From the NCBI GenBank assembly GCA_964036295.1, contig OZ038467.1, positions 15,206,670 to 15,270,669 of the forward strand: a DNA stretch of 64,000 nucleotides, in the 5' to 3' direction. Below are positions 2,228 to 55,676 of this stretch, in pieces; within the stretch, counting starts at the first letter, position 1, and every line of letters begins with the position of its first letter. A model generated the notes under the pieces. It worked only from the letters and a program-made list of their open reading frames with translations. It did no database searches and was not told where the DNA came from. The stretch comes from Plumapathes pennacea (lineage: Eukaryota > Cnidaria > Anthozoa > Antipatharia > Myriopathidae). Both the position numbers and the translations under genes were made by a program.

Positions 2228-5200
2228 CTAGTGTTTTGGTAACTGTAATAAGTTGTCTGTTAGTGAGATGTTTCTTGATGGAGTGCTACCTCGGCTCTCC
2301 ACTTGACCAGGAGTCCTTGATGCAGGTTCACGTTCCGGAGTTGCAGCAGCACTACCTGGTTGCCATGGTGATGGACTGTAACTGGCACGAAGAGACTTGT
2401 CAGTTCCAGTTCTGATGCCGAGTTTGTTTGATGCTAGTCTTTGGGCTGCTGTAGAAAGCTGACTCAACCGCTCCACTGTGTTTCCACCAGACTTTGGGCT
2501 CCTAGACAAGGAAAAAGAGTCACACATCATACTGTATACCTAAATTGTGTACTAAGTGCTAGTGAATTTTACACCCCAGGGAGCCCCCCTTCACATAAGC
2601 TTTCACTCCTGCACTTGTTCCTGCTTTCACTCCCATCCACACTTGATATCAGAGAGCATTGCACTTCACACAAGTACTGTACTGTAAGTACTCGAATAAG
2701 TGTCCACCCTCAAACAAACACCCTCCTCAAATAAGCACCCCTCCTCTAAGCCAAAATTGTAAATAAGCTCCCTGGGTGCTCATTCAAGGATTTGTGTATA
2801 ACCAAACATGAACTACTCTGGCTTCTGATTGGTTAAAGTTGTTTCTAACAGCCTCTGTGATCTGAAAGTGTATAATCTACTTTGCTTTTGCTCTTCCACG
2901 ATCATTATTAGTTTGTTCTTACTTTCCAATCAAAGCAGTTGCTTTGGCAAGAGCATCTCGTCTTTTCTCCCTCTGTCTTCTGCTGACTCTCTCTGCCAAA
3001 GCATGACCAATCGTTTCCCGTTTCTTGGGTTCTGGCATCTTGAAAGATGGTCCTGGGGTGGCATTTAGGGGTGTGTCCTCTCCATCTAAACGGAAGGGTG
3101 TTCCCTCTATACTTCCCCATGTCATGAGGGGAGAGGCATCAACACCTGTGAGTGAATCAACCAAATAATGTTATTTTTACAATAACACGTCAGTTTCTCG
3201 CTTTGTGATTGGTTAATTTTCATTATCAATAAGAGGACAGACACATAAAATCGAGTGCTGACGACAGTGATTTGGACGAAGAAGGTGAATTCAGCTTCAA
3301 TTTTACCTCAGTTCTTGCAAAAGCGACATTCGGCATTTGAAGTAGAGAACCAGAAGTGTTCAGAGGCAAATTTCCTTGAGCTTTGTCTTAAAATTGTCGA
3401 GAAAACCGGAGCAGAAAAGCGTCTACTTTCATTTCTTTCTAACTTCTTTGACAAAATTTTATTTTGCACACGCGAAATGCTAATGTCAAACTGTCACTTT
3501 TTGGCCAATAAAATGTCTTGAATTTCAACCTCAACCAATTAGAAAGTGGGAAAAGTTGTTGACAACATTTCGGTCAAATCGAACAAAATCCAGTTTTCTT
3601 GCGTGTTTTCCCCGCGTCGTCGCTTGAGTTTTGTTATTGTAAAAAACAAATTGACGCCAGTTTTTTATGTGTCTGTCCACTTATTGATCATGAAACGCAT
3701 CATAACATTGTCAAAAGGTTGCGGATCCACAACTTTTTGACAATGTTATGACGCGTTTCATGATCAATAAGAGGACAGACACATAAAAAACTGACATCAA
3801 TTTGTTAAGTGGTCCACTATTCCACTGAGTCAGTAACAGTACTTTTACTGCAGCCCCCTCACTCCTCAGATAAAACTGCAGAATATCCCAACCTTTTTAT
3901 GATACTTTGCATGTATAAAGTGGTTTAGTGAGCATCTGTAGTTTTGGTGTCAAAAACCAAGTTCCCCATACCACATGTATACATGAAGATAATATAATAA
4001 AATCAAGTTGATCACTTGTGGTAATGTAGTGAAAGGGTAAAGGTTACCAGTAATTTCACTAATCTCATCACAGTACAAGCAACATGTTTGCTTACGCTTG
4101 GCAGGCAGCAACGTAAACTTCAAGTTAGCTGTAGATAGGTTGGTTTCACTCCCAAGAGTGACCAACTTCAATTTTCTCCTTCAGTTTTTCACAAAAGATA
4201 TAACATACAGTATGGAGAACTTGACTTTTGATAGCTTGCTTAGATGACATCTGACTGAAGTATTAATTCTCTCTACATCTCTCACACATTTTCTACTTGA
4301 ATGGTTGGGAGAATCTGTACTTTGAACTTGGGAGTGAAAGGGTTAAAAACCAAACTCAATGCAAGTACCCAGCCAATCACAGAGGCCATAAATATTAATT
4401 TACATTTGGTTTTATCACAAACACAAACAAAAGATTGTCTGGAAAATACTGTTTCAGGAAACTTTTCTCTAAACTCAGGACACCTAGTTATAATAATAGT
4501 TACATGTACATATGATTTCAAGATAGTCTGATGGTGTCTTGGCTCCAAAATATTCTAGGTTTTGTTTCCAGATGACTCCATAATGAAATAAACTACTGCC
4601 CACTTACCAGGAGCAGGAGATGGTGTTCCTACAAATCCATATCCATTAACTTTAGGTGTCTCTGTGGGTTTCTGTAAGTGTCCATCCACACCAATCTTGC
4701 CCTGCAAAGCTGCGTTGTGCGTCGCAGCAGCCATTGCTAATTGTTCTGTGCACGTATTCTCGGGATATGGATTTTGTCTTAGCCTGGTGTTTGCATGAAT
4801 CACCTGTTGCCTCTTGATGTTCTTCCCCTCAATTTTCTCTTTTGCCGAATCTTCAACTCCTTCAGGTACATACATTAGAGCATTCTTGTTTGTATAACTC
4901 CATAGCTGGACCATCCCAGGTCTGTTCTCCTCTGTGAACTGGTCTCCATCAGCAGCCTCTGTCAGAGCAAGACTCCTGACTTTTGATTCCTTTCGCTCCA
5001 CTTCCTCTTTGTAAAGCCACTCGTATTTCTCTCTATGATTCTTTCGAGTGTTTTCCATAATTTGTTCAAATGATTCATTGTCCTCACTGGTGTTTTTGGC
5101 AAAGAATTTATCAAGTGTCAAATCAGAGTTGTCTTTCTTATCTTTGTGTTCTTTGCACGATTGGTTATTTTCCTCAGAGCTTGTCATCTTTGGCACAGGA

Positions 5201-8200
5201 GAGCCCTGGACTGTACTTGGTGTTTCAAATGTAGCAGGGGTACCTGCACAAATCAAAAGTCAAACAGAATCACAAATCTTCTTTGGTACTGCTGTCAGTG
5301 GTTCAAATACTGTTATAACATAAGGTGGATAGTATGCACAATCTGATCAGTGAATGCTGACAAATTCTGCATGCATTATACAGTAACTTAACATAGCATA
5401 ATATGTGCACATCAATTTGATGTCAGCTTGCACCACAGTGCTTGACATTAAGAGGCATTCCATTTCCGATTCGAGTAAGGCTGGGAAACAATAGTCCACA
5501 ATGCATTGCGTAAACTTGAGGGAATCGCGCTTTCTTGCACGTTTTCAACGGCTTTGTGGAAGGTGCCACTTTCAACGGAAAATCTGTCTTCTATATAGCC
5601 TGCTTGAAATGGATTTGTCTGCAGAACAAAAGCTCCATTTAATGCCGTTGTTTTAACCGACGAGGGATCAGAGAAGCCTGCTGCAAATATCTGTTTGTTC
5701 TTGTTATCTGTTGCCACGAATGGGACGTTTATCGGAGTTGTGCTGACAGCTGTCAAGAAACGCTTCCTAACGTCAAAAAGGTAAGAAATTCTAATTATTT
5801 TTGTCGTTTTCAATGAGTTTATTTAACGTTTATTTTGTAAATCTTGCTGTAATATTGTGTGGTACTTGAATAGCCTCGCGATCATAAGGTTTTGATGAGG
5901 ACTATTATTCGCTCGCGCCATTGAGTGCCAGCAAAGCAAGGCTTTGTAGATTTTATTTTTGCTCTTGATTGAAAAATACCGACCATGAATAAACGTAGTA
6001 TTAATTTCTATACCTCTTAATGAGATTTCAAAGTGACTCGAAGAGGTAAAGCGTGCAATAATTGGACTGACCAGTACGGTCAGCATGAAGTGAATGTCTG
6101 TGTTAATGCAGTTGTCATATGGCGTGTTTTCATTCACTATCGCCCCTTGGATGACCAGGGCCAACCAAAATGTTCAAAATTCGCATATTTCAATTTATCA
6201 TCTAAAAATCTAGCTAGGTTTACCAGCTTTTCAACGATGTAACGGTCACCAAAATCTCTTTTGCTCATGTTGTGTTTGATTTCAGTTGCTTTCTTGGCTT
6301 GCTCGGGATTTTTAGTTGTAGTTCGGCAAGATTTCTTGCAAAGAGGTCATTTTTACGTCTTGCATGACAAGAGATACTGAAACAATGTTGGAACAAAATT
6401 GAGTTACAATCGCCAAAAAATTAGATGCGAAGGAAGGTTACAAAGTTCGACCTAGTCATGCTTGCATCATAACTAAGTAATTAGCAGCGAATTTGGCGGT
6501 CTAGACATTACGGGGCCATGAAATTGTCTTTACAAGTTTGTTCTTCAATAATTTTTCCCAGTATTTAGACTCCCCTGATTCAAATTTAAGGATGTAACGG
6601 TGCTGCGATCGGCTTTTTTTTACCGCGAGTACTGTGGTTCTCGAAAGCTGTTGTGATGTTCAGTACAACCACCGGAAATTGGACTGGTACGACTTTGAAA
6701 GTACATAAAATCGTGTATCTGCGTTATCGATTCACAATTGTTGTTTTTTATGACTTGTTTAAGTTGTCTTTGGTAGTAAATATTTTACTGCGTTTTTTGT
6801 AATGTATAATGTGACAAATTCAGTGGATAATTGTGATTTTTGCCAAATATAATCATATAAATTATGCTATTTTTTTTCTGTTGCCTGTCTGAAATTAGGT
6901 ATGGTGCAAACCCTTTCATCTCAAAATAAGTTTGCAGTTACCGGTAGCTCGTTCACTTTCTTGCACATTGTAAACTAAAAGCTACTTTTAAAAGGCCTTG
7001 CATCACATAAATAACCAACTCAAAATTGCCTTCAGAGTGCAAATGGATTGCAATGTGCCAATGACTTAGTTTGTGCTTTGCGCCTTGTTTTCCTTGTTGA
7101 ACTTGCTTAATCGTTGCCTGTGCCGCCTTGACCAATACTGGAGAATCTGTCTTTCACTTAATGAATTGTCAGGCCCCACTTCAGCCGGCAGGTCTTTTCC
7201 ACGGGTAGCGGGTAGCGGGTGACGGGTGGCGGGTAGCGGGTGACGGGTGGCGGGTAGCGGGTGACGGGTAGCGGGTAACGGGTGACGGGTAACACTCAAT
7301 CGCTTTCTCAATCGATGAAGATCAGTATTGCAGTCAAAGCAACCGTAACTCTTTCGCGCATGCATCACACAAATCTTGACTTGTGTCGTGTTTGACAGCG
7401 ATATGTCACCACCTTGTGTTGAACACCAGTGAATGCGATTGATGTTCTATTTTAAATGGAACCGCAAGCAGCTACCTTTGGTGACAATTAGTGTTTATTG
7501 ATTGACGTGTAATTTGAACTAACTGCAAATCGACCCCAAATGAATTTGCCTTCAACGAAGAAAAAAGTCAGGAAGGATATAAGAAATACAGTTCCAATAC
7601 GTACAGCAATGTCACCCATCAAACCAAAGAACTATTATAATAACATATAGTTAATAAAATCTCATTAAAATACTGTATAACGTTAATTTTGTTTGGTAAT
7701 CAAAGAGGTATAGTCCTTTGGTGGCCATGTATTGTTTTAAACGCTATTCTAATTGCTATTCACTCCAACAAAACAAGTGTGTTACAAGAAAAACAACTTA
7801 ACAAGTGTTCCTCTGGGAAGGCGTTGGTAAGAACAATGAATTGGCAATCAAATTGTTTCTTACACAGTAAAACGTATAAGGAATACGCTTCACTGTCTAC
7901 AGCTGTTGTTCGACTAATCAAAAATGTATGCCGAATTCCCGCCAAAGAAGCTGTTTGTTTGACTCCGTTAATGTGCTCTGAGTTGCTTCATCGATGCATT
8001 TACTACGGTAAATTTTTTATTGTTCTGAAACACACTTACCACGGTTTTGTGAATTGTCTAGACGCGTCGTACTTTTACCGCAGTAAAGTAAATGCTTTCA
8101 CCGAGGTAAATGTGTCTCGTGTAATAAAAATTATTTATTTTACAAACAAACACCAAATAAACAAGACAGGAAAATGAACACCGCTACCCGTTACCCGTCG

Positions 8201-15621: not shown

Positions 15622-16836
15622 CTACATAGAATTTGTTCGGCGGCTTTCCGGTGATGCAACTTTTGACGTGAAGTTCAAGGAACAAGAGCGAGTTCCACGA
15701 GGAGGGGCAGGCCATGCCATTTTCTTAGAAGAATCAGCGCGAGCTTTGTTGTCGTTATCTTGCTGTTTTCTTGACTGGCTTGTTTTCTTTGCCCTAACCA
15801 CTACAGTTAGCTGGGAATCTTCCAGATTAAACAGTTCTTTAAGCGCCCTTTGAAATTCCTGTGTCCTGATGCAGTAAATTATTGGATTGAGTAACGAGTT
15901 CAAATATACTCCCATTTCTACCAAATACAGTGGACCTATCAAACTGCCTATTGGTACGTTATTTACAGGCAAAGCTACTAATTGAAATATTATCACAGGG
16001 AAAAAACAAAACAACAGAAAGCTAATGATAATCGTCGTAGTTCTGGCCGCTTTATCTTCCTTCAGAAATTCTTTTGCACCGAACGCCGAGACCTGATGAG
16101 CCTTGATGTGTTTACGGTGTCTTCGGCTTTCTAACAGCAAAGCAACTTGACAGAAAGAAATTAATAATAGGCTGCCTAAAACCGTTAAAAGAATCGCTAT
16201 ACTATCCGACTCGTCTGAGGGTACGGCTTCACCCGATAGAATAAAAGCAATATTAACTAAAGTTGATATAATAGCTGTAAAACTCCATGCTACAGCAACA
16301 GCTATGGTCAGTCGACGCGTAGTGACAAGAGTTTCGTAGCGCAATGCGTGCTTTATGCTGATGAATCGTTCAGCGCTGATTATCACCAAATGACATAGTG
16401 AAGCACCACAGGCAAGATATGTAACTTCAGACGATATTATGTAAATGAGGCAGATTGGGCCCACTCCAAGGATGTATTGTACGTGGTTCGTGATTACCAA
16501 AGGCAGGACGACAACTCCAACGAAAAGATCCGTTGCTGCCAGACAAGCCAGAAAAACACAGTGCTTTTTCTTTCGCAGATACCGCTTTCGCTTGACCGCC
16601 AAAATTACAAACGCATTTAGAAATATTGTAAAAGGGCAAATCAGTGCTTCTAAAGAGGCGGCAAGAACGATGAAGGCGAAATTGCTTGGTGACAGATATT
16701 CAGCTTTCCAGGCAAAGTCTCCTGAGAGAGAGCATAAGTATGAGGAATCAGGCTGTGTTGAGTCTGTCACATTGATGGCCATCATGGGTTGGTTTCTTTG
16801 TGCTGTCTGATCCACTCCTCGACGATAACAATGCAT
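15622..16836 (-). CDS. Class A (rhodopsin-like) GPCR, intronless
   Basis: A 404-residue receptor in one exon. Seven hydrophobic segments lie at about 54-80, 92-115, 128-155, 177-201, 212-236, 266-291 and 299-323. Class A signatures are LAATD in TM2 (Asp103), AERFISI at the end of TM3 (a DRY variant, Glu156-Arg157-Phe158), CFFP in TM6 (a CWxP variant) and NPIIY in TM7 (317-321), followed by a helix-8 stretch and a basic, serine-rich tail. An N-glycosylation site (NVT, residue 22) lies in the outer N terminus. The TM3 cysteine (129) is present but the second extracellular loop (SGEAVPSDESDS) has no partner cysteine, which is unusual. The start could be Met1 or the Met18-Met19 pair. It acts at the plasma membrane through heterotrimeric G proteins; the ligand is unknown. 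Intronless amine/adenosine/melanocortin-like receptors of this kind are numerous in cnidarians. Confidence 0.9.
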   Translation of the reverse strand: MHCYRRGVDQTAQRNQPMMAINVTDSTQPDSSYLCSLSGDFAWKAEYLSPSNFAFIVLAASLEALICPFTIFLNAFVILAVKRKRYLRKKKHCVFLACLAATDLFVGVVVLPLVITNHVQYILGVGPICLIYIISSEVTYLACGASLCHLVIISAERFISIKHALRYETLVTTRRLTIAVAVAWSFTAIISTLVNIAFILSGEAVPSDESDSIAILLTVLGSLLLISFCQVALLLESRRHRKHIKAHQVSAFGAKEFLKEDKAARTTTIIISFLLFCFFPVIIFQLVALPVNNVPIGSLIGPLYLVEMGVYLNSLLNPIIYCIRTQEFQRALKELFNLEDSQLTVVVRAKKTSQSRKQQDNDNKARADSSKKMAWPAPPRGTRSCSLNFTSKVASPESRRTNSM

Positions 16837-17639
16837 GAACCTGTAGGAGGTTTTTGCTTTTTAAAGCCCAGCCCCAAAACTACATCATATACACCGGAAA
16901 TCTGTCATCGCTATAGTATTATTGGGGTATGCGCGGCATTGTGATACGCACATACAAACTAATTTTTGCATTGTCGCCAAAATTTCGTGATTAATTACAG
17001 AATTATACTAGGCAAGAAGTATAGAAAAAAAAATGTTGTGCTGCAAGTCGACCCGTGTAACATCACCTTAACAACAAGATACAAAGTCCCAATGAGTACA
17101 TTTTAATAACAGTCTTCAAGTTGGTGTTGAGTTGAGTTCATGTAATCCTCAGTTTAGTATGCGCAGAGAAATTTGTCGGGAAAAGTGCCGTATAACAATG
17201 GAGACCGATAAAACAACTACGGCAGTATAGGGCTAAAGTGCAGTTTGGTTCATTTCCGACCCTTTGATAAGCCCGAGTAATGCTGAATAAACCTAAGGAA
17301 AGCACTGAAAAAGTTTCAATAAAGACAGCAATATTGTCTATTTACTTTCTTTTCCGTCTTTAAGCAAAAGTTAACAATACGCTCCACTCTATAAGCAATT
17401 CCGACTTTTCTGTTGAAGATACACCTGCAGGCATACATTTATTTGCACGATTTCGGCATTTATAAAATACATATTAGTTAATATATGTTTCGTTTCTTGT
17501 TGTTTTTGATATTTGTACACAAATTCCTTTAAGGCCGGTTGACTCAAATTCGACTTTTCGCACCAAACAGTGAAAAATAAAGTACAAAAAGCAGCGAGAC
17601 GGTCACCCAAACTGCGGAAAGTGCTTCCTTTTTATAACA
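16837..17639. other. GPCR upstream region, nothing recognised
   Basis: About 800 bp 5' of the receptor. No gene or element with clear ends is visible; the receptor promoter should be near 16837-16950. Confidence 0.4.
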
Positions 17640-17970: not shown

Positions 17971-18487
17971 TGGGCTACGCCCAACGAGCAATAAAAACTA
18001 AATTAACATAGGGGTTGGGTGGAATAACGCAGCTGGTTCCTCTACGAAGCCAAAGTAGACATTTCAGTAATTTACAGTTCGGTTTAAAAATAGAGTTATG
18101 ATTGTGAGCAAAAACGGAATTGGAACTTATAAACAATAGCCACAAGATTAAAGGTAAAATTTGTGCTTTTCAGACAGAAGCTATTCGCATAATGAAAGTA
18201 CCGCCAAACGGAAGCACATATTAACCCGTTCGCGCTCATTTTGTGTGAAGAACATGCAGCGAAAACAACGTCGACATTTACAAATGAATTCAAAGCTGTG
18301 TGAATTTCGGTACTTTGTCGCGGAAGAATAATTGTTGTATGTTGACTACCAAACTCAATTAAAAGAAGACGTCGTCTTTCTCTGGATGCTTATAGTTAAA
18401 GATTATTTCTTATTCAGTCTAGTGCAAACGCACAATCAAAACAATCTCGGCACTGAAATATGCCGTGAAACGAAGCTACTTCCGAAA

Positions 18488-18737
18488 GACTGCCGGTTTG
18501 TCTTGCTTCAGTAATGAGTCATTTAGGTTTTGTGGGCTTCACAAAAGTGAATGGAAGTTTCCGATGGTCGGCACAAATTTTACCGGCCTCCACAAAGAAT
18601 GACAGTTAGAAAGACTGCCGGTTTGTTATGCTTCAGTAATGAGTCATTTAGGTTTTGTGGGCTTCACAAAAGTGAATGGAAGTTTCCGATGGTCGGCACA
18701 AATTTTACCGGCCTCCACACAGAATGACCGTTAGATT
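18488..18737. repeat. Two-copy tandem duplication, 125-bp unit
   Basis: GACTGCCGGTTTGT starts at 18488 and again at 18613. The copies are nearly identical through CCGGCCTCCACA and then AGAATGA, so the duplication is recent. Confidence 0.9.
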
Positions 18738-20898: not shown

Positions 20899-21859
20899 TA
20901 AAAAGAACATTTCATCGTGTTGACTTAGACTCACTGCAAATCTTTGTTTTCCTCCAGGGCTCGGTGATTTTGGCCAACAAACTGCAGAGTTTTGATCAAA
21001 GACTCACCAAAAAGTTAGCTCCAGTTCAAAACTGGGTGAGAAAGTTGTTTTGTTTGCAAAAGGTTTTCAATTTCAGGTACAAAATGAAAACAAAGTTTAG
21101 ACTTAACCCAGCGTTAGCCTAACCATGCTTTGAACAACTGGGCCCAGGAGTTTCGACTGAAACTTTGTATCGCATCTTTTGAGTTAATCGTCTTCAATCA
21201 CTGCAATCCGACCTTCTAAGGCGCAGTTGTTGCCTAATTATTCCTGAACTATGTTTAATTAATCTTTTCCCCGTACAAAAGTAACAAGGCTTTGTTCCTA
21301 CATGGTGGTGTGAGCCAAAATAAGCTTACATGTAGTTGTTCTTGAAACAAAACATTGCAGTATGCCCACCATAAGGTTGGCAGAACAAATTTCTATAATC
21401 CTGGATTGAGTAAATCTGTAAATCTCCAAAACAGGGGTGATATCAACTCCTATTTAGGGAGATTTACTTTCATGAGTTAAAAAGTGGGAGTAAAAAGTAC
21501 TCCAAAAAAGGAGTCGTTCTGTACGTTTTTTTAACTCTCTTTTTGGAGTTAAAATAACTCTCTGAAAATAACAGTGTAAACTTGGGCCAGGCCAGTCAAA
21601 CCTCTATTAAGCGGTCCTGTATTAAGCGGACACCGTTGTCCAAGTCCCACAAATCTTATATTCTCCAGTAAGACACTGTAAACTCTCCCAGTATTAAGTG
21701 CCAGGCACTCCACCAAGGGTTGTTAGTGGCGCTAGAAACGTTTTCAACAGTACACAGTACACAGTCTTGACCTTATCCAGGACTTGCTTAGTTTCTTATA
21801 CAACTGTTGCAGCTGTTGCTCGTTTGTCTCTTTTGTGTCAGTAAATAAACCATTTTCTC
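20899..21859. other. Spacer with repeat fragments
   Basis: About 20960-21130 is found inverted at 26920-27020 (AAACTGCAGAGTTTTGATCA). Around 21593-21745 is a fragment of the AAGCGGACAC family (CAGTCAAACCTCTATTAAGC). A self-complementary GGAGT/ACTCC-rich patch lies near 21440-21560. No gene recognised. Confidence 0.45.
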
Positions 21860-22100
21860 AAGGTTGCGCGCGTATCCAAGCTTGACGGGCCACAACCTTC
21901 GATATGAGAATTGTTTAGCGAGCATTCATGCGTGAACGTCACAGAAAAGGGCTTTAAAACTCAACATAGCCGTTCTAACTTAAATAACAGCGCAGCATAA
22001 AGCATTTACATAGAGGCCGAACACAATTCCCCGTGAAAGAAAGCTAAAAGTTGAATTTGAAAATCTTGGCCCGTCAAGCTTGGATGCGCGTGCAACCTTG
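21860..22100. repeat. Hairpin MITE (CAAGCTTGACGGGCC arms)
   Basis: AAGGTTGCGCGCGTATCCAA then GCTTGACGGGCC at the left is mirrored by GGCCCGTCAAGCTTGGATGC then GCGTGCAACCTT at the right. A decayed lone end of the same family lies at 23938-23985 inside the MULE. Confidence 0.8.
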
Positions 22101-22135
22101 GGACCATGGCCTGTTGATGTATATTACGACTTATC

Positions 22136-22279
22136 TTAAGTCTGGACAGCATCCTCTTGTTTCTCTTTCTTGGTGTCTTTGATGGTCTCCTTATCAACCG
22201 GCTCCTCCTTAACTTTCACGTCTTCGCCCTCTTTGCTGTTCTCTTTCTTAATTTGTGTTTCACTTATGCTGACAGTCAT
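22136..22279 (-). CDS. Putative 47-residue KE-rich polypeptide or terminal exon
   Basis: Starts at the ATG at 22279, shortly downstream of a plausible acceptor (TTTTATTGACAG, exon from about 22305), and ends at TAA/TGA-type stop at 22136. The product is highly charged and contains VKVKEEPVD, which fits a canonical SUMO-acceptor motif (psi-K-x-E), plus KKENSKEGED. It is not recognised as a known family. It could be the last coding exon of an unseen gene, a captured fragment or chance. It sits between a MITE and the MULE. Confidence 0.25.
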   Translation of the reverse strand: MTVSISETQIKKENSKEGEDVKVKEEPVDKETIKDTKKEKQEDAVQT

Positions 22280-22402: not shown

Positions 22403-22411
22403 AGCCCTGGG
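22403..22411. repeat. 9-bp target-site duplication of the MULE, left
   Basis: AGCCCTGGG; identical copy at 26534-26542. Confidence 0.85.
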
Positions 22412-22529
22412 CGGAGTTTATACAATGACGAATTTCGTCGTTAATTTTATATACAGACGCGGATGAATTATTGCAACAAAGAAGCGGTGAAGACATAAAC
22501 ATTACTTCAAACCTTATATACAGACACAA

Positions 22530-23655
22530 CATTTCGCCGTTAATTAACGGCGAGATTTTCTGTCTGTATATAGGGACACAAGATTTCGCCGTTAATTAAC
22601 GGCGAGATTTTCTGTCTGTATATAGAGAGACACAACATTTCGCCGTTAATTAACGGCGAGATTTTCTGTCTGTATATAGGGAGACACAAGATTTCGCCGT
22701 TAATTAACGGCGAGATTTTCTGTCTGTATATAGGGACACAAGATTTCGCCGTTAATTAACGGCGAAATTTTTTGTCTGTATATAGGGACACAAGATTTCG
22801 CCGTTAATTAACGGCGAGATTTTCTGTCTGTATATAGGGACACAAGATTTCGCCGTTAATTAACGGCGAGATTTTCTGTCTGTATATAGGGACACAAGAT
22901 TTCGCCGTTAATTAACGGCGAGATTTTCTGTCTGTATATAGGGACACAACATTTCGCCGTTAATTAACGGCGAGATTTTCTGTCTGTATATAGGGACACA
23001 AGATTTCGCCGTTAATTAACGGCGAGATTTTCTGTCTGTATATAGGGACACAAGATTTCGCCGTTAATTAACGGCGAGATTTTCTGTCTGTATATAGGGA
23101 CACAAGATTTCGCCGTTAATTAACGGCGAGATTTTCTGTCTGTATATAGAGAGACACAACATTTCGCCGTTAATTAACGGCGAGATTTTCTGTCTGTATA
23201 TAGGGAGACACAAGATTTCGCCGTTAATTAACGGCGAGATTTTCTGTCTGTATATAGGGACACAAGATTTCGCCGTTAATTAACGGCGAGATTTTCTGTC
23301 TGAATATAGGGACACAACATTTCGCCGTTAATTAACGGCGAGATTTTCTGTCTGTATATAGGGACACAAGATTTCGCCGTTAATTAACGGCGAGATTTTC
23401 TGTCTGTATATAGGGACACAAGATTTCGCCGTTAATTAACGGCGAGATTTTCTGTCTGTATATAGAGAGACACAAGATTTCGCCGTTATTTAACGGCGAG
23501 ATTTTCTGTCTGTATATAGGGACACAAGATTTCGCCGTTAATTAACGGCGAGATTTTCTGTCTGTATATAGAGGGACACAACATTTCGCCGTTATTTAAC
23601 GGCGAGATTTTCTGCCTGTATATAGAGAGACACAACATTTTGCCGTTATTTACTT
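22530..23655. repeat. Palindromic ~52-bp tandem array, left arm (about 21 units)
   Basis: Units read TTCGCCGTTAATTAACGGCG followed by AGATTTTCTGTCTGTATATA and GGGACACAAGA. Twenty-one full palindromes plus a decayed one at 23641 were counted. The AATTAA core is TTATTTAA in the last units. Confidence 0.95.
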
Positions 23656-23721
23656 TGGAATACTTGGGAAGACACTTTTCTGCACACAGAGGAACGCAAC
23701 GTGTTTTTATTTTTGTATACA

Positions 23722-23868
23722 CTGCGAGCAGTCCCTCCTTTTCCCTCTAAGATCGTGAGCAAGCGCCGAGAAGAAACGCGAAAGAGGGAGACTCCATTCA
23801 CTATGTTTTTTTTTTTCGAGCACTCGCTGCACGATCTTAGAGGTCAAAGGAGGGACTGCTTGCAGTAA
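23722..23868. repeat. Nested hairpin MITE (GCAGTCCCTCCTTT ends)
   Basis: CTGCGAGCAGTCCCTCCTTT on the left and AAAGGAGGGACTGCTTGCAG on the right are inverted. The arms continue through CTAAGATCGTG / CACGATCTTAG. It is inserted between the left array and the transposase region. Confidence 0.8.
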
Positions 23869-24279
23869 TTCTTTATATAGACTAGATGCACAACATTTTT
23901 ATCTCGAGAACAAAACATTTCGCCGTAAAATTAAATTTGAAATCTTAGCCCGTCAAGTTTGGATGCCTGCGCAACCTTGAAAAATGGTCTATTTAACTAT
24001 ATAACTACCATGATACCATGATCTTTACTTCGACTAATTTTGATTCACACGCAGACGCACTTGAGTCGCCCTAAATTCATTCGAGTAAAACGTTGGAACA
24101 TAAAGATAAGTCGTAAATGATTGGGTTCATGGAAAGTTTGAATTATGCACTCTGCCCAGCTGGTTCAGACGACAATCTTTTGACGATAAAAGGTCAGCGT
24201 TTGAACTGGTGCCAACTGTCACCCCTTATTTTGAAAACGGAATGGTAAACTACGCGTAAAAAGACAGTTTTTGCATAAT

Positions 24280-25319
24280 TCATTTAACTAGAAGTCTGAC
24301 GTCCGGGCTATTTATGGTGGGAATCCAATCTTCTTCTTCGGGTCTTGTTTCTGTCTCATGGAACTTCACTAGATAGCCCTTGTTTCTGTTGTATGCCACT
24401 ATTGTGCCTTTGAACCATCCCAGATAATTTGCCTTTCCGTCTAATTCTTCCTGGTACTCTACCTCCACTGATGCGTTTATCAATGCTCGACCTGTTTTCC
24501 TTTTGGCCTAAAAAATGTGTCCAACCTGCGCCGCTTGTCGGGAGGTGTTTGGTCCATCACCGGCTCTACTTGAATGAGGCTGGACCGCTTTCTCTTTTTC
24601 CTTTGTGGGTTGCCTGCTTGACTTCGCACAGAGTACTCTGTGCTTATGTTTTGCTCTGTTGCGACCATTTTCACGGCGTGCAATCTGTCCTCAAGATAAA
24701 TGTTCCGCAAAAGGACAGATATGTTGCTGCAACCTTCTTTTATCGATTGCCTGTTCAACGATTCCACTGGATTGTTGGTATTGGGTGCGCTGTCCCACTC
24801 ATCAGTATCTCGCAATGTAAATGCTTTACAAAACATTCGTAGAATCCTCTCTCTGGTCCACCAATTCACCCAGTGTTCTGCTTTGTTCCAGTGAATAATC
24901 ATGACGTTCTGAAAACGATCGAAATTTTCAGCAGCCAGAAGATGTTGTGCTCGGGCTATAGGCTCTTTCCCACATAAGATACTAAACGTTAACATAACGT
25001 CCTCTTTGTTCGTTAGATGTTGAACCTGATATGCCAGGATCTGAAATGCATCAAATTCTTCTTTTGTGTTTGTCACAATGTTGTTCACCCGATTTATGGA
25101 CTGCTTCCAATGAAAACTGCAGCCTCTCAACAGTTTTTTAGTAAGATCTGCACCAATTCCGCTTTCGAAACCATTGTACTCTGCCTGGTCAAAATCAACC
25201 ATTATTTGGCGAAGATGTTTCCCATTTTTAAAGCTTGGGTAGAGTTTGTCCACGTGCTGGAACACCTGGGTAACTGCAGTCGAATACGAGTTTCCATCTT
25301 GTTTATTACAAACGCTGCA
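24280..25319 (-). pseudogene. MULE transposase, 5'-truncated, with Tudor-like C-terminal frame
   Basis: From a possible acceptor at 25320 (TATTACAG) the frame reads [14 protein letters not shown] then [15 protein letters not shown] hallmarks follow: [13 protein letters not shown] (second catalytic Asp region), [12 protein letters not shown] (the C/D-x2-H knuckle context), [15 protein letters not shown] and NNPVESLNR (final acidic residue helix). A lysine/arginine-rich tail (KRKRSS, DKRRRLD) ends at TGA 24480. A second frame overlapping by a few bases (24280-24483) reads [25 protein letters not shown] and EDWIP, a Tudor/Agenet-like fold. It is probably the original C terminus joined by a frameshift or intron. 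The N-terminal DNA-binding part and first catalytic Asp are absent, so this copy cannot encode a complete enzyme. Confidence 0.8.
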
Positions 25320-25556
25320 CTGTAATACTTGTTAATTCCTTAGTCCTTATTGTCACGGAAACTGATTCAAATGCTATCATGTCAATGTCGTAATAATGAA
25401 GTCGGAAATTAGTTCATAAACAACAACAAACTTTTTTTTTCTTTTTAGTCAAGGGGTTATTACACGGCAGGGAGTGCAATATGGCGGCGTATTTTTACAA
25501 GTCGGTTTTATTTTTTCGTTTTTTCTCTTTTTCTCATTTGTTCGAGCCTGCGGCAA

Positions 25557-26430
25557 ATCTCGCCGTTAAATAACGGCGAAATGTTGTGTCTCTCTATACA
25601 GACAGAAAATCTCGCCGTTAAATAACGGCGAAATGTTGTGTTCCTACCTATACGGACAATAAATCTCGCCGTTAAATAACGGCGAAATCTTGTGTCTCTC
25701 TATACAGACAGAAAATCTCGCCGTTAAATAACGGCGAAATGTTGTGTCTCTCTATATACAGACAGAAAATCTCGCCGTTCAATAACGGCGAAATGTTGTG
25801 TCTCTCTATGTACAGACAGAAAATCTCGCCGTTAATTAACGGCGAAATGTTGTATCTCTCTATATACAGACAGAAAATCTCGCCGTTAATTAACGGCGAA
25901 ATCTTGTGTCCCTATATACAGACAGAAAATCTCGCCGTTAAATAACGGCGAAATCTTGTGTCTCTCTATACAGACAGAAAATCTCGCCGTTAATTAACGG
26001 CGAAATGTTGTGTCTCCCTATATACAGACAGAAAATCTCGCCGTTAATTAACGGCGAAATCTTGTGTCCCTATATACAGACAGAAAATCTCGCCGTTAAA
26101 TAACGGCGAAATGTTGTGTCTCTCTATATACAGACAGAAAATCTCGCCGTTAATTAACGGCGAAATGTTGTGTCTCTCTATATACAGACAGAAAATCTCG
26201 CCGTTAATTAACGGCGAAATGTTGTGTCCCTATATACAGACAGAAAATCTCGCCGTTAAATAACGGCGAAATCTTGTGTCCCTATATACAGACAGAAAAT
26301 CTCGCCGTTAAATAACGGCGAAATGTTGTGTCTCTCTATATACAGACAGGAAATCTCGCCGTTAATTAACGGCGAAATCTTGTGTCCCTATATACAGACA
26401 GAAAATCTCGCCGTTAAATAACGGCGAAAT
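25557..26430. repeat. Palindromic ~52-bp tandem array, right arm (about 17 units)
   Basis: Units read CGCCGTTAAATAACGGCGAA then ATGTTGTGTCTCTCTATA and CAGACAGAAAATCT, inverted relative to the left array. AAATAA and AATTAA cores alternate here, whereas AATTAA dominates on the left. The right arm is therefore older or homogenised separately. Confidence 0.95.
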
Positions 26431-26533
26431 GTTTCGTCGGTATATAAGGATCATTCAGAAATATTTTTTGGCGATATTTTGTTTGCGTATGTATATATAG
26501 TTTATCACGAAATTCGCCATATTCATAACACCC

Positions 26534-26542
26534 AGCCCTGGG
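26534..26542. repeat. 9-bp target-site duplication of the MULE, right
   Basis: AGCCCTGGG, identical to 22403-22411. Confidence 0.85.
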
Positions 26543-33000: not shown

Positions 33001-34320
33001 ATTCTGGTCTCGACGCAACTCACGCCGCGAGCTCACTGGCGACGCCAGTCTAGTTTTGACACTTTGTTTATTATTACACAACTTCACATTTTCGAGTGCA
33101 AATACGGGCCAAAACAAGTGCAAATATGGGAGCGTATTGCACTCGTCAGGAACCAGATCAACTGGTTTATTAGCTTACGTGATCAATTTTCGCAAGCAAA
33201 GTTTACAAACGCGTCATTTTTTGTTCCATTTTGCGCACGGCGAGAAAGTTTGCCCTGCTTCGTTTGTCGTATAATAAACAATTTATTACACGAAAAGTCG
33301 TGCAATATGGCTGTATTTATCGCCGGAAGCAGGCTCGAAAAAATAAAATCGACTCATAAAAATACTCTGCCGTATTAAACTCCTTCCCGTGTAATAACCT
33401 CTTTGTCCACTATGTATAGAGCCGTTTTCGGATGACTGTCGAAAACCAAAACCAAAGTAATCACACAGGCCAATCACAGAGACTGAGAGAAAACAGTTCA
33501 GCCAATTGGAAGCCAAAGTAATTTGCCTTTGGTTTTATGCACTTTCCAATCAGCAGTGTGAGTACACGCCATCGCTTGCGTGAGAAGTGTTTGGTTTTGG
33601 TTTTGGTTTTGTTTCTGATTGGCTGAGCATGCTGACAAACTCGTGTGAACCAATCCGAAAGCGAAGCAAATGCAAAACCAAAGCAATCACACAATATTAC
33701 TTTCGACAGTCATCCGAAAACCACTCTAAAAACAGGAAACATGTCACCACTCAACCACTGTCACCTTTCACACAGGAAACACCCTGCCTATAAACATGAT
33801 TGTGGGAATTTGGGAAAACACAAGAGTACTGTACATGTAGTATAAGTAAATCACCATGTCATAAACATTGTGTTTTGACTTCCAGCTGTGGAAGCCCATT
33901 GTATTAGGACTGCCTCCTCCACAGTCTTTTCTTGCCCCTTCCCCAGTGAAAAAGCTGGTGCGAGAAAGCTGGGGACCAGTGCAAAGCATGGGCGTTGATG
34001 GGAAGGGGAGAAAGAGGAAGAGAAGAGTCAGTCTGCTTTTCCCTCCCCTTCTCGTCTTTCTCTGCTTTCCCTTCCTTCCCTTCCCATACTTACTTGCGCA
34101 CCTAGTTGGAATCAAGAAGGAGTGACTGGGGACGAGGCAGGTACTAGGAATGTACAGCAGTACGTCAATATTCTTACCTCATCTAAACTCTTGCGGAGCA
34201 CAGATCTGACTTGTTCCTCTGTTACTGCTTCTCCTGTGTTGTCTTTGATGTTATGAGCTGCCATTTTGAACATCTGAAGAATGAATCACACAATTAAGCT
34301 TGCATTTACAATAAAAGCAG

Positions 34321-44869: not shown

Positions 44870-45405
44870 TCCACCACCTCAGGCCCCAACAATCTCAGAC
44901 CCACCACCCCTCGGGGGATTGGGGACCAACCACCTCAGACCCCTCGGGGGATTGGGGACCAACCACCTCAGGCCCCTCGGGGGATTGGGGACCAACCACC
45001 TCAGGCCCCTTGGGGGAATGGGGACCAGCCACCTCAGACCCCCGGGGGATTGGGGACCAACCACCTCAGGCCCCAGGGGGGAATGGGGACCAGCCACCTC
45101 AGACCCCTCGGGGGATTGGGGACCAACCACCTCAGACCCCTCGGGGGATTGGGGACCAACCACCTCAGGCCCCAGGGGGAATGGGGACCAGCCACCTCAG
45201 ACCCCTCGGGGGATTGGGGACCAACCACCTCAGACCCCTCGGGGGATTGGGGACCAACCACCTCAGACCCCTCGGGGGATTGGGGACCAACCACCTCAGA
45301 CCCCTCGGGAGAATGGGGACCAACCACCTCAGGCCCCTTGGAGAATGGGGACCAACCACCTCAGGCCCCTTGGGGGAATGGGGACCAGCCACCTCAGACC
45401 CCGAA
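44870..45405. repeat. ~33-bp tandem array (CCACCTCAGACCCC), about 16 units
   Basis: Units such as ACCAACCACCTCAGACCCCT then CGGGGGATTGGGG recur with GACCAGCC/GACCAACC and CAGGCCCC variants. All frames stay open on both strands because the unit length is a multiple of three; this is repeat DNA, not a coding sequence. Confidence 0.92.
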
Positions 45406-47284: not shown

Positions 47285-47442
47285 GAGAACGGTTTGGAAC
47301 GTTCACCCAACCTCAGACCTCCAACGTCAGGCACCACCAACCTCAGATCTCCAACCTCAGGCATTTGGGACTGGGTCCAACTACCAACCTCAGGCTCTGG
47401 GAGAATGGGGACTACCAACTGAGGCACCTAGGGGACAAGTCG

Positions 47443-47449
47443 TAGGGGA
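47443..47449. repeat. 7-bp target-site duplication of element C, left
   Basis: TAGGGGA; identical copy at 54550-54556. Confidence 0.65.
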
Positions 47450-49379
47450 CAACACGATCTCGAGGCGAGAATAATGATTATCATAAATTCTTATTTGATC
47501 TGGAAATAATGATTATGATTGTTCCCAGGGCAGATCATGCGATGCTTGTCCCCAGGGCCATCTGCTTCATCAAAATGGCCGCCTCTCGTGGCATGCAAGC
47601 GTTCTCGAGATTTATCAACCGACGCTGTTGCTGAATGCTACAACCTTATCGAGAGTAGAAAAGAGGTCCAGGAAAGAATCTCATAACAGATGCGACGATG
47701 ATGCTAGCGCAACTCCTTCGGGTAAGGCGGCCAAACGACTTCCAAAATGCTCGTTTGTAGCAGTAGGCCACTGCGTCATGTAGGCTGGATATCTCTTGAG
47801 AACGCTTGCCTTTCACGTTCGATGTGCGACGAGAGGCGGCCATACATCTTGGTGATGCTGATACAAACCTGGCGTGCATGGAATTGCAGGATATGGTTTG
47901 TGTAGTTTGAATATTGCTTCTTGTGTACGCTGAGCTGTGAGTGTGTGGTATATACGGCTTGTTAAAACATTATTTAGAAAATATTTAGCATTACAGTAAA
48001 CACCGCTTATAATCAGGCTGTTTCGGTTCTTAAGTAGGTTCTTATTAAATCAGGGTTGAAACTGTTTGCTACTCTTCAGAATAGTACAAATCCATTACTA
48101 TGTAGCATTTACCTGGTTCGTTGTTGGTGAAGGGGTTGAGCTAGCGTAGAACTTTGGTTCGTAGTGCGAGAACGATCTCAACACGCAGAGGTTACTCTTA
48201 CAACTGACTTTATTGCAACATCTCAACTCATATATTGACTCTATTTGGTACCATTACAGACTTATTTCACAATCAGTTGGTGCATATCATTTTACTGAAC
48301 AGATTAATGCTATAATGTGTTTATATTAATTTCTGGGCTATGCTACAACTATAATAATATGATTATATTATAATACCATGCTTGCAGCAAACAATGAGGA
48401 TTATATTTCACTTGAGCCATCATAGTGATATTAATGTGTCCATGAAGCATCTAGTGCCAACACTGGTACATGTAGAGCTACAGTAGTATCATTTGTTACT
48501 GTAGATTTACTACACAGGTTGAGAAGACCTTGATATTGATCGCAAAAGCCAACCCAATATGCTGCAAGCAACAGAGAAAGGAAACCTTGGCATGTAGAAT
48601 GACATGTGTCAACAAAATAGTCTCACATACATATATTAAATAGAATGATTATTGTATTTGCTAAATAAAGATAACTAAATAAAAATAAACTAAATTATTT
48701 AGTTTATCTTTATTTATTGACAGGGCTTGTCAGTAAAACTTGGCAACTGGCTGGGGGTGGGAGGTAGAGTTATCCCCTATATTTCCTATAGGGACGTTCT
48801 GCTGGATAGGGTATAGTTTTCAGGGTCCTCCAGCTGGCTTAAACATGGTATATGATTTTACATTTTCGTGTCTTAAACAGGGAACTTAACTCCCACACTC
48901 AACTAACTTAAACTCCTGCTTTGGCTTGAACTCTTGCTCTGCGCAACAAGAATTGCGATTACATTAAATGATTTGTAATCAACCTTTTCACATAATGTTT
49001 ATCTTGCCATCACTTTGTCTATATGATAGCATTTGACAAGACGTATTTGTTACAAGGAGTTTTGTACCTGATGTGTATTGCCGCGTAAATGCAGACGGCT
49101 ATGTTGCCTAAGGAAAATTACGTGGAATAAAGCATTTTGCAATAGTGTCTTGAATATGGTGCAATTTTTGGTTGCCTTGCAAAATCAGGAAATTTGGACT
49201 GATGGCTAATACTTATGGCTACTTGGTGTATAAATGAGAATGACGAACTTATCTGAACCCTGTAAGAATTTCAGGCTTTGGTGCAAAATAGGACTACTTT
49301 ATTTGTTTGTACACTGACTCAGTGTGGGAGAAAAAAACTAGATTTGCCTTGTATTCCAAGTGGGTGCTGTCATGCCGAT

Positions 49380-52300
49380 GCTTTTTGCAAACAGTTTACT
49401 GCCTGAACACTGCGTATGTTTACCAAAAAAAGGTTGTGGGATCTCTTTGTAGGTCACAAGTGGGAGGATCCAAAAGAACCAAGATCCAATTGTAAAATCC
49501 AAAAGAACAGATGTTCTGAATGGTGAAGCGACAATTTAGCCAAGCCGACTGGCTCCTTGCAATCATCCAAGACATCGCCGCGGGCTACTAATGGCCTGCC
49601 ACTCACGGCTCTCTTAAGAGCCACCACGTTAATAAAAGTGAATGATTCATTTAGCGCTTCAAATAAACGTTATCCGAAATGAAAAACGCTACCGACCACT
49701 TACCGACCACTAAATCTTACCAGCCACATACCGACCACGTTACTGACCACGTTACCGACCACTTGCCGACTAGTTCAACTTGTTCACAATCACCCTGGCT
49801 TTTTCCAATAGTTATCAGTCAGGTAGGCCTGTAGCTTCATTGCCACCTTGCTGTTTCCAGCGGCTGTTTCAATGTTTCATGCCCGTGGAAAATAGCTCTA
49901 TCAGCTTCTTGGGAGTACCTTATGGTGCAAAGGTTGGAGAATGTTGTCTAATATTACGCGCGTAGCAACCTTCAAATCCGCTTTTTGTCCGCAACAGGAG
50001 CCGCAAATATGCTGGAAGGTTCTGTGGATGTTAAGGTAGATGCTTCACTGTGTCAGTAAGAATTGAAGATCCCCACATCCCAAAGCACATTGCTTGACAC
50101 CTTGCGCAGTTTTGTTATATTTTTTGCAACCTCGCAAGTGGCATTTGGTTGATATATATTTGAGGGGATAAGTCAGATTTGTTTGCTATAGCCTTGGTTT
50201 TAGTGACTTAGTTTTATTGGATTCTCACCATCATAAGCTCGGAGGTGGCGCGCTACTTGTTTTGGGCCAATTTCCTTCAATCAGTCGTAAGCCGGTAATC
50301 CGGCATCGGTTGCCGGCAATGAATTGATAAACTGTACCCATACTCAAAAGTCAAGCCCTCGGAAATCTTGAACCTGATAACTCCAGTACAATTAATGCTT
50401 AATAAATGCTCACGAGGAACTCAAAGGTGTGATCGCTCTTGATGTCTTTAGAGCAAGATTGTTCTTGAAGAATTTTGCGTTTAAAAAGGTCACGCCTTGC
50501 TTGACAATATTACACCGACATCCCCTAGCCACGTATATGTCGCCGGCTGGTCAACCTACTATTTGCAAGAAGTAGTCAAAATAATTCCTTATTTCTTTGG
50601 TGATATCAACAGCTTTAAAGCAATAAGATTTACAAAAGCTGCAGTTTTCTGACTGTTTATTATAGTAAAGCACATACCCGGTGGCTGTAAACTGTGCCAG
50701 AGGGACGGAGAGTAGGAAACCCCTACACATCCATAAGCATTTCAAATTTAGACTCTAATTCATCATTTCAGCGTTTTATGCGATTTTGCCCGTGTTTCGG
50801 TCAGTGTAGTATGTAATAGCAGAAAGTTTCATCTGGTTCAAAGCAAGAAACGTGATTATTTTCTATAACTGCTGCTTCATCGCCTTCTTTTTCATTTTTA
50901 TGCGCATTTGTCTATATTTCCTGCACTGTAGCGTCTAAACTCAACGAGTCTCACCCGGTTCATTGCAAAAAAACGACTATTTCGCATACAACGCTCAAAT
51001 CCATTTTCTACGCACTATGCGGTTCTTTCCGTGTTTTGTACACTGTAGCGTCTGAAGAAAAGGCATTTCATCCCTTTTTCGAGCAAAAATCGACAAGTTT
51101 GCACCGTCAGTCCTCACCCTACCCCACTGAAAGGAAATACCAACAATTTATGCGACTACATAATCAGGTAGTCACAAACGCTATATTTGCCTGAAGTATA
51201 TTGTATGAGAAATGTACATACCGTAAATCGTTTCAGGATTGTCTAAACTCTTCCTAGCACGACTTGAACAAGGGTTAATGATGCCGTCATATTTGGTTTG
51301 TGAGGGTGTGGGGGTTGGGGAAAAATTGTCGTGGCTGTGACCTAGCCGTACTCCAAGAAACGCAAATTTTGATCAACTCCAGCATCATTACACTCGAATT
51401 TAACAAATATCTCTGTCGCTTGTCCTTTGACTTTCACCAATGCTGTATTAGCGCATGCATCTTCGGCAAAGCGGTGAAAAACCTGTTTTTGATCGATCTA
51501 TAAATGAAAAAAAAAAAAGGTGAGCCACCATTCCACTCGAATTTCTCATCCTTTGAAATTATAGTGGCATACACAGCAAACAACTATAAAAAAAACTTTT
51601 GGTCGAGCTGTGCGACATGTATCACCCTCTAGATACATTTGTAAGCGCATGCCGCGCCCACAATAATTTACACGAAAATTTCGGATTTGGGGTAGGTAAA
51701 GTTTTCGTATCAAAACCGCGGCGCCCATTTTATATATTCTTTCTCCTTTTCGATAAGATCGTTTCTTTCATTTGTTAAACTCACTTTGATACTAGTTTCA
51801 TTTTATAGCATTTTGTTTCATTTGGGAAATTTACACCCTGCGCAGTGCACTGTGTAGTAATTTTTTTTGCCTCGGAGGTGTGCGATCCACGCACACCAAG
51901 GAGCTTATACTCTCTAGTAACATGCGCTTAATATCTGTTATCCATTTTTCGATCTTTGACAAACTTTTGATCCGCACTTTGCGCGCAGCTAGAAACATTT
52001 GGGCTTTCTTCGTTTTTCCGACAAATAAAACTAACTAGAAACTAGAAACTGCAGCTTGAAACTTTAGTGGTGCTTTGCGACATTTTAGTTTACGAGTCTG
52101 AATTGAGTAAATATGCTCTTTCCAGCTGTGTCATAATTTCATCTTTGTCCAAGTTTTACATAAGCTATCATTACCGCGATAAAGATCTGTTACAGTACCT
52201 CGGCACTGCATGACTAAACCCTTTCTTTTAAATGGAAATAGAAAAACCCGATTGCGATATTTTCATGCAAGAAAGCAAGTGGCGATGTTTTGCAGTTGTC

Positions 52301-52664
52301 CGCCCACTGTTGACTGATTTCTTCTTTAGAGTAAAACTAAACGCGATTTCCTTGGCTTTCGGTTGGCTGAAAGTGTTTCTTATGCATAATTGCTTTATTT
52401 TGGTTTTCGAAAGTCATCCAGAAATGGCTCAAATCAAACACAATTAATGGAACACAGGATCAGAAACATGAATGTATTTAAAACAAAGTCAAAACCAATA
52501 CAAAATCTTAGCATTTAAGGATAGGATAGAATACTCCTATCACCATATGGAATAAGGTAATCATTCTGTTATGCCGTTCTTTTAATTTAAATTCGGTGCC
52601 AGCCTTGTATAAACAAATGTGGAAAACTATGAAAACTTAAACCTCAATTTGACCTTTTTGTGAG
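49380..52664. other. Element C central region
   Basis: No coding gene is recognised. Features are a histone-type 3' stem-loop (49607-49622), stuttered ACCGACCAC units (49690-49775) and a decayed GGTTTTCG MITE end near 52330-52440. Confidence 0.45.
49607..49622 (+). promoter_or_regulatory. Histone-mRNA-type 3' stem-loop (orphan)
   Basis: GGCTCTCTTAAGAGCC: a six-base-pair stem with a four-base loop, flanked by CAC on the left and ACCACG on the right. This is the shape and flank of replication-dependent histone 3' ends (GGCTCT-loop-AGAGCC-ACC). No histone coding sequence is visible upstream, so this is an orphan element or histone-gene relic; chance is possible. Confidence 0.5.
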
Positions 52665-53056
52665 TCAGGCATAACAGCACCCACTTGAAATACAAGGCAA
52701 GTCTAGATTTTCCTTTCATACTGAGTCAACGTACAAACAAATAAAGTGCAGTCCTATTTTGCACAAAAGCCTAAAATTCTTACAGAGTTCAGATAAGTTC
52801 TTTCTTCTCATTTCATTTTAATCATGTTTGGAAACAATATTCCTCTTGGCAGTTGTCCCAGTTATTTGACAATGCTGACATTCTTGAATCCCAGGAACAA
52901 TGTTTTATTTGTCATTGCCACTCATGTCAACACAGGACTCCAAAGCTTCATCCAAAAGATCTTCAGAAAAGAGAAAAATATGGGTAATACTTCAATAAAA
53001 TATAAAAGTAGCATCTGATGTAAACAGCAACATGTAGCTATTTGTGAGCTCATAGG

Positions 53057-53256
53057 ACTAGTTTACATGTACAACAAAAACATAAGCATAAGTGTAAGCA
53101 TAAGCATAAATGACAAAAAAGTTACAGTGCAACATATTAACATAAAATATTTTCTTACCCAGTTATGCTTATGTCCCACTGTAGCTCTCCTGTTGTTTAT
53201 GCTCATGCTTATATGTTTGCGCTTGTGCTTATGCTTATGTCATGTGTAAACCAGCC
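53057..53256. repeat. Hairpin MITE inserted in the right arm of element C
   Basis: GTTTACATGTACAAC then CATAAGCATAAGTGTAAGC on the left pairs with GCTTGTGCTTATGCTTATG then TGTGTAAAC on the right. No counterpart is seen at the matching place in the left arm, so it inserted after the arms formed. Confidence 0.7.
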
Positions 53257-54549: not shown

Positions 54550-54556
54550 TAGGGGA
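54550..54556. repeat. 7-bp target-site duplication of element C, right
   Basis: TAGGGGA, identical to 47443-47449. Confidence 0.65.
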
Positions 54557-55348: not shown

Positions 55349-55676
55349 CGTACTAAACCAAAAACAACAATAAAAAACGTAATAAGTCATCTACTTACAG
55401 CCATGTCTCTACTTTCTCCTTGAAGAGTTTACATAATTTCGATTCGAAAGACGGCAATATTTCTTTGAGGCGGCGCGTGGTTCTACCGAAAATCACCAAT
55501 TCCGATTCACCGGAAGTCTGGCGATGTGCCTGAGGTTGGAGTTGGACCCATTCCCCCAGGTGCGCTGCTGAGGTTGGTAGTCCCCATTCTCCCAGATGCC
55601 TGAGGTTGGTAGTTGGACCCAGTCCCAAATGCCTGAGGTTGGAGGTCCGAGGTTGGTGAACGTTCCAACTGTAGAT

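Follow-up and report, generated by a model that had tools for sequence, protein, structure and literature searches.

The window analyzed here, a 64-kb stretch of Plumapathes pennacea contig OZ038467.1 (40% G+C, no N), carries at positions 22412-26533 an element of 4122 bp, bounded by two exact copies of AGCCCTGGG, that is probably a Foldback-type DNA transposon, defective and non-autonomous, with the Mutator-like element (MULE)/Rehavkus (NOF) branch as its most likely affiliation. From each end inward, it consists of a tip, a tandem array that is inverted relative to that of the other arm, and a mainly degenerate middle (Table 1). An earlier, sequence-only reading had described two inverted arrays of about 21 and about 17 units of roughly 52 bp, together with a 9-bp duplication around the whole. 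Both descriptions held, with 21 and 17 palindrome cores at a period of 52-54 bp and a duplication that is exact at both sides, and a transposon-like unit with inverted arrays, a 9-bp duplication and a degenerate coding remnant between its arms is supported. The element is largely ordinary for its class and has one unusual trait, the palindromic unit of its arrays.

Table 1. Features of the element, from left to right, followed by two coding stretches elsewhere in the window
Feature	Position	Strand	Remarks
9-bp target site duplication, left copy	22403..22411	+	AGCCCTGGG; identical to 26534-26542
Left tip, outside array	22412..22514	+	103 bp; globally aligned with right tip
Left array	22515..23652	+	21 palindrome cores; Tandem Repeats Finder 21.6 copies, unit 52-54 bp
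Inner continuation of left arm	23653..23934	+	decayed unit remnant 23900-23934, beyond nested insertion 23721-23866
Nested small inverted-repeat (MITE-like) insertion in left arm	23721..23866	.	ends aligned: ACTGC(G/A)AGCAGTCCCTCCTTT / ACTGC(G/A)AGCAGTCCCTCC
75-codon open frame, Agenet-like domain	24280..24507	-	domain at residues 14-62; PF05641 E 6e-5, 23.9 bits, under curated cut-off 27
283-codon open frame, putative C-terminal part of DDE transposase	24483..25331	-	D46, C71xxH74, W179, E190
Repeat fragment	25451..25518	.	84% identity over 68 bp to 33336-33403 (self-blastn); upstream of 283-codon frame
Right array, inverted relative to left	25555..26446	-	17 palindrome cores; Tandem Repeats Finder 25555-26433, 16.6 copies, unit 52-54 bp
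Right tip	26447..26533	-	87 bp; may hold a degenerate palindromic unit (GGCGATATTTT ... TATATA ... AATTCGCC)
9-bp target site duplication, right copy	26534..26542	+	identical to left copy
Es2 (conserved nuclear gene) stretch	4558-5259	-	
Rhodopsin-family receptor	15625-16860	-	412-codon open frame

Within the window, the 9-mer has one further occurrence (29635), and 8 places match it with at most one mismatch, including the 3 exact ones. The probability of an exact 9-bp pair lying by chance within 10 bp of both ends was estimated at ~0.002. Global alignment of the two tips revealed the common blocks CGAATTTCGT and TATATACA-ACG, and the element begins with CGGAGTT and ends with AACACCC. When the element was compared by blastn with the remainder of the window, no match to its tips or arrays was obtained, leaving it as a single copy there. 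No target duplication was visible by eye around the nested insertion of the left arm, which resembles a miniature inverted-repeat transposable element (MITE). A fragment of another dispersed repeat lies inside the element at 23927-24008 and recurs at 22047-22130 and 21842-21890.

Two inverted arrays of a palindromic unit

The pattern CGCCGTTNNNNAACGGCG was found 38 times in the window, and every occurrence lay in the arrays of the element (21 in the left, 17 in the right). Core-to-core steps were 52 or 54 bp, with no gap in either array. The right array could be traced past the end assigned by Tandem Repeats Finder (26433) up to 26446, while a 22nd, partial unit with a broken stem at the inner border of the left array (from ~23640 on) was excluded from the core count. 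The arms are inverted, with complementarity reaching 97% over 330 nt.

The unit proved to be palindromic over its full length, with two dyads, one centred on TTAATTAA and the other on TATATA. At each of these dyads, 21 of 26 pairs are complementary, compared with 12 of 26 at the next-best centre, and the symmetry of the spacer taken by itself was equalled in 4 of 5000 shuffles for the 34-nt form and in 2 of 5000 for the 36-nt form. The unit is a near-palindrome of 52-54 bp made of two inverted half-units of ~26 bp (TATATA...CGCCGTTAA). With two dyads per unit, each array therefore amounts to a run of ~26-bp half-units that alternate in orientation, and it is because of this alternation that stretches of the arrays are ~80% complementary to their neighbours. 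The sequence-only reading had overlooked the full-length two-dyad unit, as well as the unit types that are identical across the arms and the perfect stem present in 38 of 38 cores. Single-strand DNA folding yielded -7.4 kcal/mol for the 18-base core (6 of 200 shuffles as good), -13.6 kcal/mol for a 58-nt unit (z -6.3, 0 of 200 shuffles) and -25.3 kcal/mol for a 70-nt two-core piece (z -9.1, 0 of 200 shuffles). By this computed folding, array DNA could be capable of hairpin extrusion.

Units from both arms were then aligned (n = 36; 20 left and 16 right), omitting the last unit of each arm, which has no following core. They fell into 19 types, two of which are letter-identical across the arms: left units L02 and L12 equal right units R05 and R06, and L19 equals R01, R03, R07 and R10. 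It had been proposed earlier that the arms differ in core (AATTAA against mainly AAATAA) and that each arm homogenises on its own, and both proposals hold only in part. On the plus strand, the counts do differ, with 19 AATT and 2 ATTT in the left array and 7 AATT, 9 AAAT and 1 CAAT in the right, but the AAATAA of the right arm and the TTATTTAA of the left are one variant when read in a common direction, and this variant is present in both arms. A pair of left-arm units showed 2.3 differences on average, a pair of right-arm units 4.2, and a pair with one unit from each arm 3.8. The between-arm excess, reached in 19 of 2000 label shuffles, is in line with separate homogenisation, whereas the two shared unit types, and a right arm as diverse internally as it is against the left, weaken that idea. 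The arms draw on a common unit stock and show little differentiation; units are more uniform in the left one. Furthermore, left-arm units 1-4, 6 and 7 recur as units 11-14, 16 and 17, a hint of a copied block; the right arm gave no signal of periodicity, with 716 of 2000 random orders as good.

Outside the arrays proper, the decayed unit inward of the left array gave an nhmmer E value of 0.01 at 23910-23926 and a local alignment equalled in 1 of 500 shuffles. The piece at 23656-23727 showed no significant resemblance to the unit (83 of 500 shuffles as good), and a comparison inward of the right array found no decayed unit, with 484 of 500 shuffles doing as well. Both tips were also compared with the unit, after a first version of this test had been discarded for including the partial unit that adjoins the array. 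The left tip (22412-22508) matched weakly, with 18 of 500 shuffles as good in pairwise alignment and 7 of 500 resampled tips as good by nhmmer. The local alignment of the right tip (26452-26533) was unmatched in 500 shuffles, and an nhmmer profile of the half-unit found nothing in that tip.

Across the 36 aligned units, variation affected 12 of 36 spacer columns and 0 of 14 stem columns (Fisher p 0.012, computed on array units that are non-independent). The 38-core pattern itself requires the stem, and the stem count is evidence only in combination with the unbroken core spacing, which means that no unit within the arrays has lost its stem. The observed/expected CpG ratio was 1.9-2.0 in the arrays, against 0.88 in the interior of the element and 0.79 across the window. 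Intact stems and undepleted CpG would be expected under selection on the palindrome, and equally after recent amplification.

These observations bear on an account in which the arrays have no function in transposition and are a neutral by-product of slippage or unequal exchange in a dead element, their palindromes merely destabilizing the region. Such an account concerns the arrays only, is compatible with a Foldback element, and appears quite possible to us, although we stop short of favouring it. Its appeal comes from the variable unit number in the arms of Tm1 (1-9 units) and in derivatives of Muta1 (here and below, published systems are compared through the accessible parts of the papers concerned), from the decayed unit inward of the left array, and from the incomplete coding part and the other repeats inside the element. 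It is opposed by the 38 intact stems, retained despite variable spacers, and by the undepleted CpG of the arrays, both of which fit youth as well as constraint.

The coding remnant and the surroundings of the element

Between the arms of the putative Foldback element, the 283-codon frame displays, in order, VDFD (D46), GCSFH (C71, H74), several W (the last at 179) and NNPVE (E190), with a D-H spacing of 28 and a D-E spacing of 144. No frame of this length was reached in 1000 resampled interiors, the longest of which had 282 codons. We read this arrangement, also in light of the motifs known from such transposases, as a putative MULE-type catalytic core. The sequence-only reading had placed a MULE transposase remnant here: a degenerate coding remnant is indeed present, and its motif order and spacing fit, but the MULE identity of the frame, plausible from these motifs, stays unproven, as PF10551 (the MULE domain) matched neither the frame nor five pieces of it. 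Matches of the five pieces to PCSK9_C2, ZNHIT3_C and DUF5575_N in Pfam (E 0.08-0.23) were weak and unrelated and were taken as noise. Six 8-residue patterns from the frame hit 1 and 15 stretches in the viral and genome contig collections, respectively, none of them related, in a scan that reaches close relatives only.

Directly downstream of the 283-codon frame, in a different reading frame, lies the open frame with the Agenet-like domain; no transposase is known to us to have an Agenet-like tail. The frames scanned gave no match to a PHD finger, the protein being incomplete. What coding sequence remains is incomplete, and in its present form the element seems to be non-autonomous. The repeat fragment at 25451-25518 could mark the site where the missing 5' coding part, or the first catalytic D, had lain.

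The window looks animal because of the rhodopsin-family receptor frame and the Es2 stretch. A minus-strand ATG at 22279, in GCCGCCATG context and 133 bp from the left end of the element, opens 47 codons followed by a stop (22136-22279). A coding exon adjoining the element through a splice donor after these 47 codons was considered and rejected, given the stop codon there and no clear donor. Further along the window, an element-like unit of 7.1 kb (47450-54549) has terminal inverted repeats of 502 bp, identical at 498 of 502 positions, and is flanked by the 7-bp duplication TAGGGGA (47443-47449, 54550-54556). It contains five open frames of at least 85 codons, four of them in or overlapping the arms and one inside (112 codons, 50856-51194). 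A 33-bp minisatellite, ACCCCTCGGGGGATTGGGGACCAACCACCTCAG, is present in 15 copies at 44906-45402, with short arrays resembling it at 47307-47363, 55527-55613 and 56330-56408, and a 125-bp sequence occurs at 18484-18735 in two head-to-tail copies that are 96% alike.

Relation to known elements and alternative classifications

Ends built from repeat arrays are known in Tm1, Tetris and Rehavkus-1_TC and, among the 12 long-armed MULE families of Aedes, in 10 (PMC3169594, PMC4079207, PMC10218199, PMC5225508). Target duplications of Rehavkus measure 9 bp, and those of Tm1, Tetris and the Aedes families range from 8 to 10 bp (PMC3169594, PMC4079207, PMC5225508, PMC6446971). The element has the long inverted arms of internal tandem repeats and the exact duplication of a Foldback element (8-10 bp in the MULE type), its 9 bp lie within the 8-11 bp of MULEs, and a minisatellite in or beside the terminal inverted repeats, as in Rehavkus, is present in both arms. 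Neither the first catalytic D nor a zinc finger, a domain often present at the N terminus of MULE transposases, was found, so the superfamily is assigned from the length of the duplication, the order of the motifs and the architecture.

Foldback/NOF of Drosophila belongs to the same group as Rehavkus. Rehavkus elements are described with a 9-bp duplication, a minisatellite and a PHD finger (PMC6446971), and in Rehavkus-1_TC of Tribolium the inverted termini hold short arrays of a 164-bp repeat, most of them five and eight monomers long (PMC10218199). The element resembles Rehavkus in its 9-bp duplication and in a minisatellite tied to the terminal repeats (PMC6446971, PMC10218199) and differs in a unit of 52-54 bp that is palindromic throughout and present in 21 and 17 copies, as well as in having an Agenet-like domain and no PHD finger in the frames scanned. 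Tm1 of root-knot nematodes, of the Phantom subclass, ends in CGGTTAA and CCTACCC, motifs that resemble the element's CGGAGTT and AACACCC but are short enough for the likeness to be chance (PMC3169594). In contrast to those of the element, Tm1 units are mostly 14 bp, number 1-9 per arm and are given no palindromic description in the accessible text, and Tm1-A retains FLYWCH and MULE domains (PMC3169594).

Muta1 of Aedes aegypti shares with the element a duplication of 8-9 bp, arms of subterminal tandem repeats and a DDE domain with CxxH and W, and its D-H spacing of 24 (D283-H307) and D-E spacing of 136 (D283-E419) compare with 28 and 144 here (PMC5225508). It differs in having 9 copies of a 12-bp repeat, a separate 10-bp palindromic terminal motif and an intact transposase, and arm units of Muta1 and other Aedes MULEs measure 9-15 bp (PMC5225508). 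Tetris of Drosophila virilis is likewise a non-autonomous Foldback element with 8-10 bp duplications and arm tandem repeats that vary in number, whereas its units are ~220 bp, and of the two allelic copies compared one has three repeats and the other four; drawing a parallel with Galileo, the authors make a case for additional binding sites (PMC4079207). Mcmar of Meloidogyne chitwoodi is Tc1/mariner-like and belongs to another superfamily.

An array of full-length palindromic two-dyad units was not found in the accessible, mostly open-access literature on Foldback, MULE and Rehavkus arms, a scope outside which Repbase lies, and exact unit strings of 16-18 bases had no occurrence in the literature text searched. 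The coral MITEs of PMC2872659 are piggyBac-related, and the accessible parts of PMC13359780, PMC12220107 and PMC12694884 describe no such palindrome array. In a viral contig collection, the palindrome was present in 4 contigs at one site each, which is about chance by a rough estimate with an assumed collection size, and the longer unit pattern had no match there. A lone site in a Burkholderia metagenome-assembled genome, from the genome contig collection, was taken as chance. The palindromic repeat unit looks like a less usual version of the repeat-built ends already known.

Alternatively, the element could be of Foldback type but belong to a different transposase superfamily, P/Galileo-like or hAT-like, with arms convergent in architecture, which we consider distinctly unlikely. 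P and hAT elements make 8-bp duplications, in contrast to the 9 bp observed here, and the D-E and D-H spacings come close to the Muta1 values. The lack of a PF10551 match in the 283-codon frame speaks for such an origin, as do the combination of Foldback arms with a P-type transposase in Galileo (PMC3169594), the Foldback-like arms that PMC4079207 likewise describes for Galileo, and the fact that CxxH and W are common to MULE and hAT (PMC5225508). Retention of the arms as a double-stranded RNA source, as a chromatin boundary or as replication-pausing elements would seem very improbable from the sequence features at hand: their 97% complementarity over 330 nt and the 58-nt and 70-nt folding, far stronger than in shuffles, agree with it, but inter-arm folding is expected of any Foldback element. 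An independent satellite expanded at two inverted places, with no transposon involved, is hardly tenable against the exact 9-bp duplication, the matching non-array tips and the long open frame between the arms, even though TIR-220 of Tetris (PMC4079207) and the 164-bp Rehavkus-1_TC repeat (PMC10218199) also exist as satellites.

Several points weigh against a Foldback-type element of the MULE/Rehavkus branch as the identity of this insertion. The whole 283-codon frame had no match up to E 10 in Pfam, PDB sequences or NCBIfam, the last being a prokaryote library and hence a weak test. No segment with the first catalytic D was found, and the 6 frames scanned, out of 41 open stretches, yielded no N-terminal zinc finger, the N-terminal part itself not having been found. 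Single-sequence structure prediction for the 283-aa frame was uninformative (mean pLDDT 39.5). Moreover, Rehavkus is described as confined to insects and annelids and as having the minisatellite before the 3' terminal repeat (PMC6446971), whereas the element has it in both arms. One copy was seen, and no empty site. As for the arms, the similarity of unit to tip is weak and method-dependent, and at most suggestive, and the 10-unit period of the left arm is borderline, with 106 of 2000 random unit orders as good at some lag.

Origin and possible role of the arrays

As a Foldback-type element of the MULE/Rehavkus branch, the element would have inserted by cut and paste, leaving the 9-bp duplication, and would most likely have moved as other Foldback/MULE elements do, with transposase supplied by a full-length relative. 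Its terminal inverted repeats would have expanded into tandem arrays, from half-units that may derive from the element's own terminal sequence, and unequal exchange or slippage would probably have lengthened the arms, with some units passing from one to the other. The half-units might serve the transposase as repeated dimer-binding sites, a dimeric binder being suited to a unit that has dyads; we advance this role for the putative half-sites tentatively, as a possibility. A more far-reaching proposal, in which the 38 double-dyad units would amount to ~76 alternating half-sites for a dimeric DNA-binding protein (transposase or host factor), kept palindromic by selection, so that the ends would form a scaffold of stacked dimers instead of offering one recognition site per end, is in our estimation unlikely.

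To our knowledge, the reason for the recurrent appearance of tandem arrays in the ends of Foldback elements is unsettled, the choice being between added binding sites and mere slippage. The two-dyad unit, with its unbroken stem in 38 cores, provides a definite sequence for testing these two explanations against each other, and it is also a marker for locating an intact copy in the host species.

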